Virus record (IMG/VR): IMGVR_UViG_3300028384_001275
Location: 40,524-104,523 of that record
Direction: 5' to 3' (one strand)
Source of the DNA: a virus
DNA: 64,000 nucleotides
This document shows, piece after piece, positions 5,842-64,000 of this stretch. Every line of letters starts with the position of its first letter. Within the stretch, counting starts at the first letter, position 1. The notes under the pieces are model-generated. The model searched no databases. It was not told where the DNA came from and saw nothing but the letters and a program-made list of their open reading frames with translations. The position numbers were made by a program, and so were the translations under genes.

Positions 5842-6388
5842 TAAACCTATAGTTATTGATAATTACTTTCCAGATTGGTTAGTTGATCATGTTGGAGATT
5901 ATTTTGCTGGTTATCCTGTAACCTTTACAAATTCTCCAACTGCTGTATATGAAAATGCCAAATTCTTTGGCAATATGATAATGACTGACGATCAATGGAC
6001 TGTGCCTGAAGATATTCAGTCTTGGTTTATTGAATACTTTAATAACTGCATTTATTTTGATATTTGTAAGAATGATAACATCACACATTGTCATCGCATT
6101 CTATTAAATGGGCAGGTGAAAGGTCAAAAATCACAGAATCACTGTGATTCAGATTATGATTGTTATTTGAGTGTGATTTATCATGCTTCAGGCACATCTG
6201 GAAGCACAGTGTTTGTGAATGATTCTGATGAGGATGTGCAAGAGGTAGAGTTTAAGCCTGGGCGCATGATTCTCTTCAATTCTACACTCTGGCATCGTGG
6301 AGATCCACCAGTTGATGATAACTATCGTGTGAGTCTTGGTTGTGTTTATCCCATGGTGCCCATTCAGGATCTTCCCCACCCCGTGTGA
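5831..6388 (+). CDS. 2OG-Fe(II) oxygenase
   Basis: A 185-residue prolyl-hydroxylase-like dioxygenase. The iron ligands are H104-C-D106 and H155 (NSTLWH), with R166 for 2-oxoglutarate; GSTVFVN and GRMILFN form the conserved strands between them. ATG 5831 is chosen because the protein then opens with the family-typical MKYDKPIVIDNYFP; the frame is open upstream to 5732, but that extension overlaps the preceding gene heavily. It is separated from the first five dioxygenase-like genes by the nuclease/methyltransferase block, so it is probably a separate acquisition. Substrate unknown. Confidence 0.75.
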   Translation: MKYDKPIVIDNYFPDWLVDHVGDYFAGYPVTFTNSPTAVYENAKFFGNMIMTDDQWTVPEDIQSWFIEYFNNCIYFDICKNDNITHCHRILLNGQVKGQKSQNHCDSDYDCYLSVIYHASGTSGSTVFVNDSDEDVQEVEFKPGRMILFNSTLWHRGDPPVDDNYRVSLGCVYPMVPIQDLPHPV

Positions 6389-46224: not shown

Positions 46225-46227
46225 TAA

Positions 46228-57578: not shown

Positions 57579-60500
57579 ATGGCAAATAGAATTCAATTAA
57601 GACGTGATGGTGCTCAGCAGTGGGCAAACGTTAATCCAATTCTTGCTCAAGGTGAGTTGGGAATTGAGATTGATACCTCTCGTATCAAAATCGGTGATGG
57701 TGTTACGGCATGGAACTCTCTGAGATATGAGAGACCGCTTGAAACCGAATCAAACACTGCTAACACTTTGGTTAAGAGGGATTCTGACGGTAACTTTGAA
57801 GCAGGATCTATTACCGCATCTCTAATCGGAAATGCTGCAACTGCAACCCGACTGGCAAACGCACGTCAGATTCAGTTGGGTGGTGACATGTCTGGTGCTG
57901 GCACGTTTGACGGATCTTCAAACCTAACCATCACTGCTGAGCTGAATTACGTTACGGCACTGCCACACTATGATGCTGAAAACCTAGGAGCAACTGGCAC
58001 ATATACGAGATTTACAGTTGACTCTCGTGGTCGTATTGTTAATGCTGACAATCCCACAGCATTGTCAGACTTTGGTATTACTGACGCACAACCTCTGGAT
58101 AGTGATCTGACATCTCTGGCTGGTATGTCAGGTTTCGGTATCATCTCTCGTCAATCAGAAGGCACACTGGTCAACCGCACCATCACTGGTGGTAGTGGTC
58201 GTGTTATTGTTAATAACGGTAATGGTCAGTCTGCTAACCCATTTGTTGACCTGGCAGATACCACTGTTGTTGTTGGCACCTATAACCAACTCAATAGTAG
58301 AGATCCTCTTTACAATCCAAAAGTTTCGGTTACTACTGGTGAAGAAACTGTTAACTCTCCTAATTTTGAGGTTGACAGATATGGTCGTTTAATTTATGCT
58401 AACACCAGTCCTATTGCAACCGCAACGGAGGGTGCGAAGTCTGGCACATCTTTCACCACTTACGATAACGCTGTTGCGTATTCTAGATTTAGCAAGATTA
58501 TTGCAAGTAACGGTCGCTGCTACCAGGCGGCTATTCGTGACATCCCAGCAGGACTCGGCGAACCTAGTCACAACACCCAAAATGGCGATAACGACGATCA
58601 GGGTGGATGGAGAGACCTGGGTTCTGATACCATTGAGCAAAAGGGTCTTGCGAGTTTCGACCAAGAAGACTTTAATGTAGATGATAATGGTCATGTAACG
58701 ATTGCTGCAAACGCTATTGAGAATTCCCAACTACAATCGTTGGGTCACCTCATGTTTACTGACCAAAATGCAACGGAGACTTTTGAGCTTGACCCCGAGC
58801 GTACGACTGATAATGCTTATCATGGCATTACCAAGCTTAATCATATTAACGTTAACAACAGAACTGGCGGTAGCGTTTTCCGTATCGTTGGTTACGATAC
58901 TGCTGAGTATCCTTTCCAACCTGGCATTCTGGATCAGGGAAATTCCTATCCTGCTATTGCTCCTGACGACGCTGACGGTAACGGTCTTGCCACCAGTGGG
59001 TCATCTCTCACTGGCGCTGTTGACATTAACCTCGATACTACCATCGCTGGTAACATTACTCTTGATGTTACAAAAGCCAACCAGTTCATTAAGCGGACCT
59101 CGGGTAATCTAGAGATTGCTCTGGAAGTTAATGAAGCGACTAATCGCTCCATGGATATCAACGTCACCAATACAGGTGCTGGTGACGCAACTTTCAACCT
59201 GACTGCTGATCAGGACATCACTATTAGTGTGACTGATGTTGACCATAGAGTCAACGTTGAAGACTTTCACTTCCAAGATAATGTCCTTTCCACCACCAAC
59301 TCCACAATGGTGTTGGACCCTAATGATGATGACGATGCTACTGGTGTTGTCCGTATCCGTGGTGACTTGACGGTTGACGGCACAACTACAACAGTCAACT
59401 CAACTGTAACGACTATTCAAGACCCTATCATCACTTTGGGTGGTGAGGATACTTTAACAGTTGATGACAACCTCGACCGAGGTGTTGAGTTTAGGTATTA
59501 TGATACGCAGGAGCGTTTCGGTTTCTTTGGTTGGGATGAAGATTATGCGGACAGTAACATATGGACTGGCACTGGCGGGTATCGCTTCCTCTACAACGCG
59601 ACTAACACAAATGAGGTTTTTGCTGGTACTGACGCTGCTCTCATTGCTGGTAACCTCAGGCTCACAACAAACACAGGATCCACATCTACCACGTCTGGCA
59701 CCCTGGTAGTCACTGGTGGTGTTGGAGTTTCTGGTGATGTCCATATTCAAGAGACGGTTACAGTTGGTAATCAAGTAGAGATTAACGATAGTGTCGTTAT
59801 CAAGTCTGACAATGAAGACTTTTTGATTCAGACCTCTGCTGGTGCCACAAAGTTTAGTGTTGATACTGATACTGGTAACACAGTTATTGAAGGCACAGTT
59901 GATATTACACTTGAGACAAAAATTTACGACAAACTGGTTGTCCGTGCAACCAATAGGAGTTTCAAAGTCCAGAATGGATCTGCTGTTGATAAGTTTGTTG
60001 TTGATTCTGATAACGGTAACACTGAAATTGAAGGCACTCTTGACGTTGATGGTGGAGTAACTTTCAACAGCACTTTGGATGTTGACCTCGCTACCACTCT
60101 TAACAATACTCTGGATGTTGACCTGGACTCAACATTCCATGATGATATTACTCTCGATACCACTGGTAAATTCTTTACCATTACCAACGGCACCGATCAG
60201 AAGTTTAGAGTAACTTCTACTAATGGTAACACCGATATTGAGGGATCTCTTAATGTTGCTGGTGTTAATACTTTTGAGCGCACTAACAACATCGCTGTTG
60301 CAACCACTGATTCTAATATCACCCTGAGCACTGGTGGTAATGCTACCTTTGCTGGTGGCGTTAACATGGATAAGGACCTCCGTGTTGGTGGTGACATCTA
60401 TCTGGCAGACCGTCTGGTGGTTAAAGATGCTGGCACAGCACGCACACGTCCCTCTCTGCTCAACAACGTTGATGTTTTGTATCGCACCTATATGGGTGGT

Positions 60501-62714
60501 GGCACAGCACATAACGCCAGCTTTGCTAACGATGCAGATGCTCAGTTGAGAGTTGCTGGTGGTGTTGGCATCGTCCAAGATCTTTATGTTGGTGATGATT
60601 TTTATATCGGCAAAGTTAGCAACACTGATACTATTGAATTTAGTGTCCTTGGTGAATCTGGTGCTACAACAATCGGTCGTGTCGGACAGGGTGGCGTTAC
60701 TGATGGCAGTCTGACAGTCCACGGTGATGTCATTTTCAATCGTGATGTTACTTTCAACGGTGATGCTCTGACGTTTGGTGTTAACAACTCTGATGTGTTG
60801 ACTGTCAACGCAGTATCTACTTTCACCGACAGTGTAACGATCAATCAGAATCTGACGGTTGATGGTAACACAGTCTTGGAAGGCAACCTGACCGTTAATG
60901 GCACAACCACAACTATCAACTCCACCACACAGACTCTGGACGATCCTGTCTTCACTCTGGGTGGTGATACTGCTCCTACTGGCACAGATGCCAAGGATCG
61001 TGGTATTGAATTCCGTTATTACGATACCAGTGCAAAGGTTGGTTTCTTTGGTTGGGATAACTCCGCATCACGTTATGCTTTCTACGATAACGCCATTAAT
61101 TCTTCTGAAGCATTCTCTGGCACTCGCTCTGGTATTGATGCAGGTAGCCTTAAGCTCTTTGATACTACTAACGCAACTAACGCTGCAACTGGCACACTTA
61201 TTGTTGGTGGTGGTGCTGCTATTGGTCTTGATTTGTATGTAGGTGATGATTTGGTTGTCACCGATGATGGATCTTTTGGTGGCAATGTAAATATTACTGG
61301 CACTCTTGACGTTACTGATGATTTCGCTGTATCTACGAAATTTACAGTCGATGCACAGACTGGCAATACTTTCGTTGATGGCACATTCACTGTTAACGGC
61401 AATAGCACTATCGGTAATGCTGGCAGTGATTCTCATACAGTAAACGGCACAGTTGCTTTCAACCATGCAATCACATCTACAGATATTACAGCCGACCAGA
61501 TTGAAATTGGTGTTGACGGTCCAACTGAAATTAGCACCACTGCTGGTAATCTCATCCTTGACTCCGTTGGCGGCACTGTCAATATCACAGATAATGCTGA
61601 CGTAGATGGTAACCTCAATGTTGATGGCAACACACAGATTGATGGTACGCTCACGGTTGATGGCAACACGACTATCGGCAAGTATTCTACCGCTAATCAC
61701 ACGGTTAACGGTACTGTCACATTCAACCAAGCGATTACTTCCACCAACATCACGGCGGACGAAATCAAGATCGGAGTAGATTTCAATAACATGATCAGCA
61801 GCACGAGTGGGGTGCTTGCTCTTAAAGGTGAGAATGGCACGGTTGCTATTTCTCAGGGTAGTAATTTGCTTGTTGAGGGTAACTTAACAACGAGAGGAAA
61901 TAGCACACTTGGTAATGCTTCTACCGATACTCATACTGTTAACGGTACTGTCACATTCAACCAAGCGATTACCTCTACAGATATTACTGCCGATAACATC
62001 AAGATTGGTGTTGATGCATCAACTGAAATCAGCACCACTGTAGGTAATTTGATTCTTGATTCCTTTGGTGGTACGGTCAACATCACTGATAATGCTACTG
62101 TCAGCGGCACTTTGGTCGTATCTGATCAGGCAACTATCAATGATACTCTGATTATCGATTCTACTAATGAAAACTTTATCATTAGATCTTCGGCAGTTAA
62201 TAAATTTACCGTTGATACCGATAACGGCAACACCTTTATTGCTGGCACAATTCAGGTTGAAGGTCTGACAACCATCAATGACAATATTGATATTAACGGT
62301 AACGCTGATATCTCTGGCACATCTACATTGGGCGGTGTTGTTAATATCACTGATACTACTAACGCATCTACTGGCAACAGCTTTTCTTCCTCTGGTGCTC
62401 TGCAAGTTACTGGTGGTGCATCTATCGCCAGAGACGTAGCGATCGGTGGAGATATTCAGGTCTATGGTGACTTTGAGGTTGACGGTAACGTCGTCCAGAA
62501 AAAGGTAACCAGGAATTCCGTGGTCGTGTTGAATTTACTAAGAATGAGACTGCAAATCGTCTTACTGACAACTGTGCAATCATGGTGCCCCAAGGTGGCA
62601 TCGCGGTTTACGAAGATTCTTTCTTCGGTCAGAAGATCTTCGTTGGTCCTGACAATGCAGAAACAATTACTTTCTTCGGTGCCACGGGTAACATTACTGC
62701 AGATGGCACTGTAA
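57579..62714 (+). CDS. Tail fibre protein, frame 0 part (frame broken near 62504)
   Basis: A 1711-codon frame with a fibre N-terminus (MANRIQLRRDGAQQWANVNP, then LGIEIDTSRIKIGDGVTAW) like the Mtd N-terminal domain. The rest is beta-fibre repeats: two diverged copies of a module with TVNG/DGTTTT, RG(V/I)EFRYYDT and GFFGWD (residues 596-722 and 1091-1224), then three 80-residue repeats with HTVNGTV and ITADxIxIGVD. After codon 1642 (AAG at 62502-62504) the frame becomes nonsense of about 70 residues (VTRNSVVVLNLLRMR ...). The fibre sequence goes on in the -1 frame. It should bind host receptors at the tail periphery. Confidence 0.8.
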   Translation: MANRIQLRRDGAQQWANVNPILAQGELGIEIDTSRIKIGDGVTAWNSLRYERPLETESNTANTLVKRDSDGNFEAGSITASLIGNAATATRLANARQIQLGGDMSGAGTFDGSSNLTITAELNYVTALPHYDAENLGATGTYTRFTVDSRGRIVNADNPTALSDFGITDAQPLDSDLTSLAGMSGFGIISRQSEGTLVNRTITGGSGRVIVNNGNGQSANPFVDLADTTVVVGTYNQLNSRDPLYNPKVSVTTGEETVNSPNFEVDRYGRLIYANTSPIATATEGAKSGTSFTTYDNAVAYSRFSKIIASNGRCYQAAIRDIPAGLGEPSHNTQNGDNDDQGGWRDLGSDTIEQKGLASFDQEDFNVDDNGHVTIAANAIENSQLQSLGHLMFTDQNATETFELDPERTTDNAYHGITKLNHINVNNRTGGSVFRIVGYDTAEYPFQPGILDQGNSYPAIAPDDADGNGLATSGSSLTGAVDINLDTTIAGNITLDVTKANQFIKRTSGNLEIALEVNEATNRSMDINVTNTGAGDATFNLTADQDITISVTDVDHRVNVEDFHFQDNVLSTTNSTMVLDPNDDDDATGVVRIRGDLTVDGTTTTVNSTVTTIQDPIITLGGEDTLTVDDNLDRGVEFRYYDTQERFGFFGWDEDYADSNIWTGTGGYRFLYNATNTNEVFAGTDAALIAGNLRLTTNTGSTSTTSGTLVVTGGVGVSGDVHIQETVTVGNQVEINDSVVIKSDNEDFLIQTSAGATKFSVDTDTGNTVIEGTVDITLETKIYDKLVVRATNRSFKVQNGSAVDKFVVDSDNGNTEIEGTLDVDGGVTFNSTLDVDLATTLNNTLDVDLDSTFHDDITLDTTGKFFTITNGTDQKFRVTSTNGNTDIEGSLNVAGVNTFERTNNIAVATTDSNITLSTGGNATFAGGVNMDKDLRVGGDIYLADRLVVKDAGTARTRPSLLNNVDVLYRTYMGGGTAHNASFANDADAQLRVAGGVGIVQDLYVGDDFYIGKVSNTDTIEFSVLGESGATTIGRVGQGGVTDGSLTVHGDVIFNRDVTFNGDALTFGVNNSDVLTVNAVSTFTDSVTINQNLTVDGNTVLEGNLTVNGTTTTINSTTQTLDDPVFTLGGDTAPTGTDAKDRGIEFRYYDTSAKVGFFGWDNSASRYAFYDNAINSSEAFSGTRSGIDAGSLKLFDTTNATNAATGTLIVGGGAAIGLDLYVGDDLVVTDDGSFGGNVNITGTLDVTDDFAVSTKFTVDAQTGNTFVDGTFTVNGNSTIGNAGSDSHTVNGTVAFNHAITSTDITADQIEIGVDGPTEISTTAGNLILDSVGGTVNITDNADVDGNLNVDGNTQIDGTLTVDGNTTIGKYSTANHTVNGTVTFNQAITSTNITADEIKIGVDFNNMISSTSGVLALKGENGTVAISQGSNLLVEGNLTTRGNSTLGNASTDTHTVNGTVTFNQAITSTDITADNIKIGVDASTEISTTVGNLILDSFGGTVNITDNATVSGTLVVSDQATINDTLIIDSTNENFIIRSSAVNKFTVDTDNGNTFIAGTIQVEGLTTINDNIDINGNADISGTSTLGGVVNITDTTNASTGNSFSSSGALQVTGGASIARDVAIGGDIQVYGDFEVDGNVVQKKVTRNSVVVLNLLRMRLQIVLLTTVQSWCPKVASRFTKILSSVRRSSLVLTMQKQLLSSVPRVTLLQMAL
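61690..62110 (+). repeat. Tandem fibre repeats
   Basis: Part of a threefold repeat starting near 61430. GGTACTGTCACATTCAACCA is exact at 61709 and 61944. The repeats encode HTVNGTV(A/T)FN and then ITST(D/N)ITAD and GNLILDS(V/F)GG. Confidence 0.75.
62499..62505 (+). other. Frame junction AAA AAG G, possible -1 slip site
   Basis: Codons AAA (62499-62501) and AAG (62502-62504) are followed by G. Reading back one base gives GGT AAC CAG GAA TTC and joins exactly to the downstream fibre frame. A -1 slip would leave the AAG-decoding tRNA on AAA, but the preceding codon would shift onto GAA (a mismatch). I see no clear downstream stimulator. A lost G in GGG explains it equally well. Confidence 0.6.
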
Positions 62715-64000
62715 CTGCTGCTACTCTTAGTGCTACCACAGGTAACATTAGCACTGTCAATACCACTTCTAATGCTAACATTGGCGGATCGATTATTGTC
62801 AATACTAACAAGTTTATTGTTGCTGGAGCTACAGGTAATACTGATATTGCAGGTGCCCTTGCAGTAACTGGAGGGACCACCTTATCGAGCACACTGACAG
62901 TTAATAATGCAGTTGACTTTAATAACACCTTGAATGTTGATGGTGCCACTACACTAAATGCTGCACTGACACAAAATAGCACAAGCCTCTTCAAGGATAA
63001 TGTGGTTCTGCGTGGTGCTTCTAAGACACTGAAGCTGCAAAATGGATCTTCCCAAGATCGTATTACCATGTCTTCTACCACTGGTAATATTACGGCAACT
63101 GGTGCAGGTGACTTTGGATCCATGTCCATCACTGGTAACACAACTGTTGGTGGCACTCTGGGTGTAACGGGTCAGATCACTGGTGATGTTACTGGCGACT
63201 TGACGGGCACATCAGATAAGACAGATCTGGTGGAAATTACTGATACTCCCACATCAAACCTGACTTACTACCCTGTTTTCGTATCTGCTAACACTGGATA
63301 TACTGAAATTCGGACAGACTCTGGTCAACTGCAATATAATCCTTTTGAGAATAGACTGACAGTTAGTAACTTCCGATCAACCACCGACTTTGAAGTCCAA
63401 GGTAACTTGAATGTTACTGGTGCATTGACCTTCTTCCAGTCTCAGGTTGGTAGTATTGCCAACCATGATACTGACGCTCTGTCAGAAGGGACTACTAATC
63501 TCTACTACACCAATGAGAGAGTTGATGATCGTGTTGCAGCACTGATCAATGGCGGCACAGGTATTTCGGCAACGTATAATGATGCTGGTAACCTGCTGTC
63601 TCTTGCTGTTGACTTTGGTGAGATCAATACTGATAATCTGACTGAAGGTAGCACTAATAGATTCTTCACTCAAGCGAGGACAAGAAATGCTTTTACTTAT
63701 GGCACTGGTATTCAGCACGACGGCAGTGGCACTATTTCAGTTACTCAGTCGGATATCAATACAGACAATATCACTGAAGGGTCCACTAACCTCTTCTTCA
63801 CTCAGGCTCGCGCTCGTGGTGCATTCAGTGTTACTGGCGACCTCGGTTACAATGCTTCTACTGGTGTCTTTAGCTTCACCGAGCGCACTGATGCTGAGGT
63901 AAACGGTCTTGCTGATGCTCGTATTGCACTGAATGTCGGCACAAACCTTGATCTGAGTAATCAGGACACGGATGATCTGTCAGAAGGTACTACTAACCTT
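62504..64000 (+). CDS. Tail fibre continuation in -1 frame, 3' end outside window
   Basis: This frame is open from the junction to the window edge, about 499 codons, and encodes typical fibre sequence: GNQEFRGRVEFTKNETAN, DSFFGQKIFVG, then repeats of LSEGTTNLYYTNERVDDRVAA and LTEGSTNRFFTQARTRNAF. It has no good start of its own near the junction; the first ATG is at 62581 inside conserved sequence and lacks a ribosome-binding site. It is therefore the second half of the same fibre rather than an independent gene. Confidence 0.75.

Follow-up and report, generated by a model that had tools for sequence, protein, structure and literature searches.

A frame change in a cyanophage fibre gene lies at the right edge of a tract identical to a second phage contig and is probably a chimeric join

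The window analysed here is a 64,000-nucleotide stretch of viral DNA that closes a virus record of 104,523 bases, and its gene content is that of the baseplate region of a T4-like cyanophage, with gp6-, gp8- and gp10-like genes. From upstream to downstream it carries a structural gene of 6965 codons, two small ORFs and a fibre gene that begins at 57579. The large structural gene is one open frame (22206-43103) matching phrog_701; its counterpart in S-WAM1, a 20,214-nt gene in the same position, is annotated as baseplate wedge initiator. The gene order upstream of the fibre gene, a gp10-like wedge gene followed by two small ORFs, matches that of S-WAM1, and the neck genes expected downstream fall past the contig end. 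The same gene is found in the same place, as one CDS, in four isolates (S-WAM1, S-SZBM1, P-TIM40 and P-RSM6).

On the plus strand, the frame-0 ORF of the fibre gene (57579-62714, phrog_697) encodes 1711 aa, of which the last ~70, past 62504, are out of frame. Its N-terminus holds an Mtd_N domain of the virion-attachment type (57591-57707; Pfam PF18454, E 4.6e-12, above the cut-off). The phrog_697 profile matches both the N part of the gene (E 0, 1398 bits) and the C part after the frame change (E 1.7e-74), so that profile and synteny together place it among the structural/fibre genes of this family in the Kyanoviridae. Described members include the S-WAM1 "YadA domain-containing structural protein" (AOV61566.1) and the S-SZBM1 protein UNH61317.1. 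The window copy shares their position, downstream of the gp10-like wedge/fibre connector with two small ORFs and ahead of the neck genes, and is homologous over the whole length; the Mtd_N start was noted in the window copy. Unlike its relatives, whose single frame stays open over about 2074-2617 aa, it is not a single uninterrupted frame: it is split at 62501-62504 by two additional nucleotides and cut by the contig end. Internal duplication of fibre modules is suggested by two or three stretches of 120-225 nt within the gene, at 61374-62096, that repeat one another imperfectly (about 64-76% similar).

The frame change is present in the deposited sequence. Frame 0 is open from the ATG at 57579 until a stop at 62712-62714, but it reads GTC GTC CAG AAA AAG, with AAA AAG at 62499-62504, and then turns into nonsense for its final 69 codons (62505-62714, by ORF and tblastn analysis). 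Coding continues in frame -1, on the same strand, from the GGT at 62504 for 499 codons, and this frame stays open to 64000, the contig end; ORF, phrog_697 and tblastn evidence all identify it as fibre sequence. A frame open by chance was ruled out, since, with every codon of the long genes taken as a starting point, the -1 frame stays open for a median of 5 codons and for at least 300 codons in 0.04% of cases. The preliminary description had the fibre coding run unbroken over 57579-64000 except at one point on AAAAAGG, where frame 0 gives way to frame -1, and this reading is borne out by the ORFs and by profile matches on both sides of the junction. When ORFs of relatives were used as tblastn queries, four independent relatives broke at 62501-62504.

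No other switch of frame within a gene was detected anywhere in the 104 kb by tblastn with 409 ORFs of relatives, 258 of which had matches; general indel noise is therefore unlikely and was rejected. A second place flagged near position 46226 of the window proved to be a gene boundary read from stop to stop.

Comparison with relatives defines the change. The set comprised 25 distinct relatives with this junction, namely 23 viral contigs and the isolates S-WAM1 and S-SZBM1, and all 25 read through in frame as CAG AAA GGT AAC CAG (VQKGNQ). At greater length the junction is CAG AAA GGT AAC CAG GAA TTC CGT GGT or synonyms, that is, GDFEVDGNVVQK-GNQEFRGRVEF. Because the relatives have AAAGG, the AAAAAGG of the window (62499-62505, plus strand) contains two extra A's; the difference is +2 nt against every aligned relative, and a +2 and a -1 shift land in the same frame. 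In the relative L088, aligned to the window over about 750 bases, these two nucleotides are the sole gap. In another relative, L037, an in-frame CAAAAAGG arises simply from the use of CAA as the Gln codon. The single-base deletion offered in the preliminary description was rejected, as the relatives demand a gain of two bases and no base has been lost; the comparison of A and G run lengths that it proposed (AAAGG in 25/25, AAAAAGG here) itself speaks against a deletion. Likewise, the reads it named as a refutation, AAAAAGGG, were mis-aimed, given that the relatives predict AAAGG.

The two extra bases lie at the end of a short tract with a different nearest relative. Over 62403-62504 (plus strand) the window is identical at 102/102 positions to L059 (IMGVR_UViG_3300028384_000673, 111,559 bases), and the matching ends right after AAAAAG, so that the right edge of this island is the frame change. 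Over 62403-62501 the match to L059 is 99/99, whereas all other relatives are identical at 69-83 of the 99 positions. Outside the island, identity between the window and L059 is 65-88% in the upstream flank, directly downstream there is no alignment, and aligned segments elsewhere in the fibre gene are mostly 65-86% identical. L088, on the other hand, is 75% identical to the window in the island, with 86% and 94% in the flanks on either side; L088/L101-type sequence reaches 86-92% in the flank just upstream and 94% just downstream. The nearest relative changes sharply at the junction, as would be expected of a chimeric assembly. Among the records scanned, a search for further carriers of the island returned L059 and L107 only, both being the same contig. 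The island is thus L059 sequence inside an L088/L101-type gene, with the additional two nucleotides as its right edge.

CAGAAAAAG occurs in L059 as well, where it stays in frame owing to the absence of 12 residues (GNQEFRGRVEFS) that the relatives possess; the L059 DNA at the site is CAGAAA followed by AAGAAC, and the L059 protein continues KNENPNNL. At L059 positions 6024-6060, exactly 36 nt (the same 12 residues) are absent by comparison with the other relatives that share this junction. The loss keeps the frame and looks like that of one of two tandem 12-residue units.

The two contigs are linked at a second place. The final 99 bases of the window (63902-64000, plus strand) match the end of the L059 contig exactly; the two contigs break off at one and the same base, inside an LSEGTTNL motif that is repeated. 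Compared over their full lengths, the two contigs have their longest exact matches in the island (102 nt) and at the ends (99 nt), followed by matches of 83 and 63. Since two contigs ending in the same 99-mer are expected of a de Bruijn graph with k~99 at a branching node, we infer that both probably derive from one graph, built with k ~99 from one shared sample. The island exceeds this k of 99 by three bases only. A search for a further record with the same start as either contig, carried out to confirm k = 99 and the common sample, returned none among the records scanned. The 99 common bases in the LSEGTTNL motif suggest one assembly graph for both contigs and illustrate why such fibre genes break assemblies.

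Our preferred explanation, to which we assign a probability of roughly 0.6, is that the frame change is the right edge of a chimeric patch produced during assembly or library preparation and that no working genetic element is involved; the coincidence of the island end with the AAAAAG run points to a chimeric join. Under this explanation, the L088/L101-type fibre gene of a T4-like cyanophage would have received ~102 bases (62403-62504) of another phage, L059, whose contig apparently comes from the same sample. Most likely, assembly of the upstream part entered the L059 path at a shared k-mer, and that path would then have been rejoined to native downstream sequence via an inexact overlap or a chimeric read. 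The contig would thereby retain CAGAAAAAG of L059 and resume native sequence at GTAACC, which CAGAAAG would precede in the native gene. With CAGAAAAAG joined to GTAACC, two A's would be counted twice and the frame moved by +2 (= -1). We infer the artificial nature of the splice from features that can be read directly in the contigs: the two added bases, the island, its match to L059 and the shared end. We also count in favour of a chimera that the contig ends 1.5 kb from the site and that the gene is rich in internal repeats. Inter-strain chimeric contigs with indel errors have been described in de Bruijn assemblies (PMC11443906), and microdiversity tangles marine phage assemblies (PMC6487183). 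Our case resembles such contigs (PMC11443906; PMC6487183) in that a relative, apparently co-occurring, supplies a patch bordered by an indel and that the contigs end at shared k-mers, and differs in that the chimera is deduced here from sequence alone. We count against it that a plain de Bruijn path cannot create the k-mer ...AAAAAGGTAACC without supporting reads; an artefact requires either chimeric reads or, at scaffolding, a join by inexact overlap. Both the value k = 99 and the exact joining step are reconstructions of ours, and the failure of the scan of contig starts to give a second example also weighs against the artefact.

The main rival, a genuine recombinant, predicts the same sequence as a misjoin. 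Here an L059-type patch would have replaced native DNA during co-infection, and the right crossover would have slipped on AAAG, adding two nucleotides and truncating the fibre; because L059 lacks the 12-residue unit, homology would stop at CAGAAA. One exchange would account for both the island and the added bases, fibre segments of this family vary in mosaic fashion among relatives, and assemblers normally require read support for junctions. Nevertheless, two crossovers ~100 nt apart would be required, and the product, which lacks at least the last 430 residues of a virion protein intact in all relatives, would have to dominate the population. An island of 102 nt at a presumed k of 99 is also better explained by the graph. 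We regard this alternative as possible but rather unlikely.

Simple slippage in the A run, from AAA to AAAAA by mutation or sequencing error and independently of the L059 tract, would fit the observation that both extra bases are A and lie inside an A run. It would leave unexplained why the 102-nt identity to L059 ends at that very base; moreover, a run of three A's is not slippage-prone, and the contig shows no other indel. We consider it very improbable. Slightly less credible still is a combined scenario, in which a recent recombinant of two co-infecting cyanophages acquired AAA AAG by out-of-register exchange at a fibre repeat unit and -1 slippage partly restores the fibre.

Programmed -1 ribosomal frameshifting is known in phage tail assembly chaperones, as in lambda G/GT. 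The window resembles that system in having a slippery run of lysine codons followed by an open -1 frame, and a slip from AAAAAG would indeed restore the frame, giving VQKKGNQ. The preliminary description had raised such a shift as an on/off switch between a short and a long fibre. Unlike lambda G/GT, the gene is a different one, and neither a conserved slippery site nor a downstream structure accompanies the run. None of the 25 in-frame relatives of this junction type, which have AAA GG in frame, contains the AAA-AAG codon pair, so that programmed shifting is not conserved; the window has the heptamer G AAA AAG as opposed to the strong A AAA AAG; no stimulatory RNA structure was detected downstream of the junction (fold z -0.28 vs shuffled sequence); and in isolates one CDS covers the whole protein. 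Elsewhere in the long genes, eight further AAA-AAR pairs occur, and the -1 frames that follow them extend over no more than 24 codons. The literature searched revealed no programmed frameshift in a tail fibre. Programmed shifting at G AAA AAG is accordingly the reading we credit least, but some slippage of the AAAAAG run might occur as a side effect of the join. A phase-variable homopolymer switch is not supported, as the site holds five A's and relatives have one in-frame AAA before GG, not a long homopolymer of varying length.

The feature is thus most likely not real as a genetic element but a splice made by assembly or template switching. Of the earlier interpretation, the junction, the frame and the mention of assembly error among the options stand; the specific mechanisms do not, given the +2 against relatives and the lack of a conserved slippery pair. 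Our results call for caution when frameshifts are read from uncultivated phage genomes, as the edge of an inter-strain chimera can mimic a slippery site in a host-range gene. Even without reads, such edges are recognisable by an exact tract common to a second contig together with contig ends sharing one k-mer. If a genuine recombinant were the true origin, the locus would show how co-infecting cyanophages exchange fibre repeat units.
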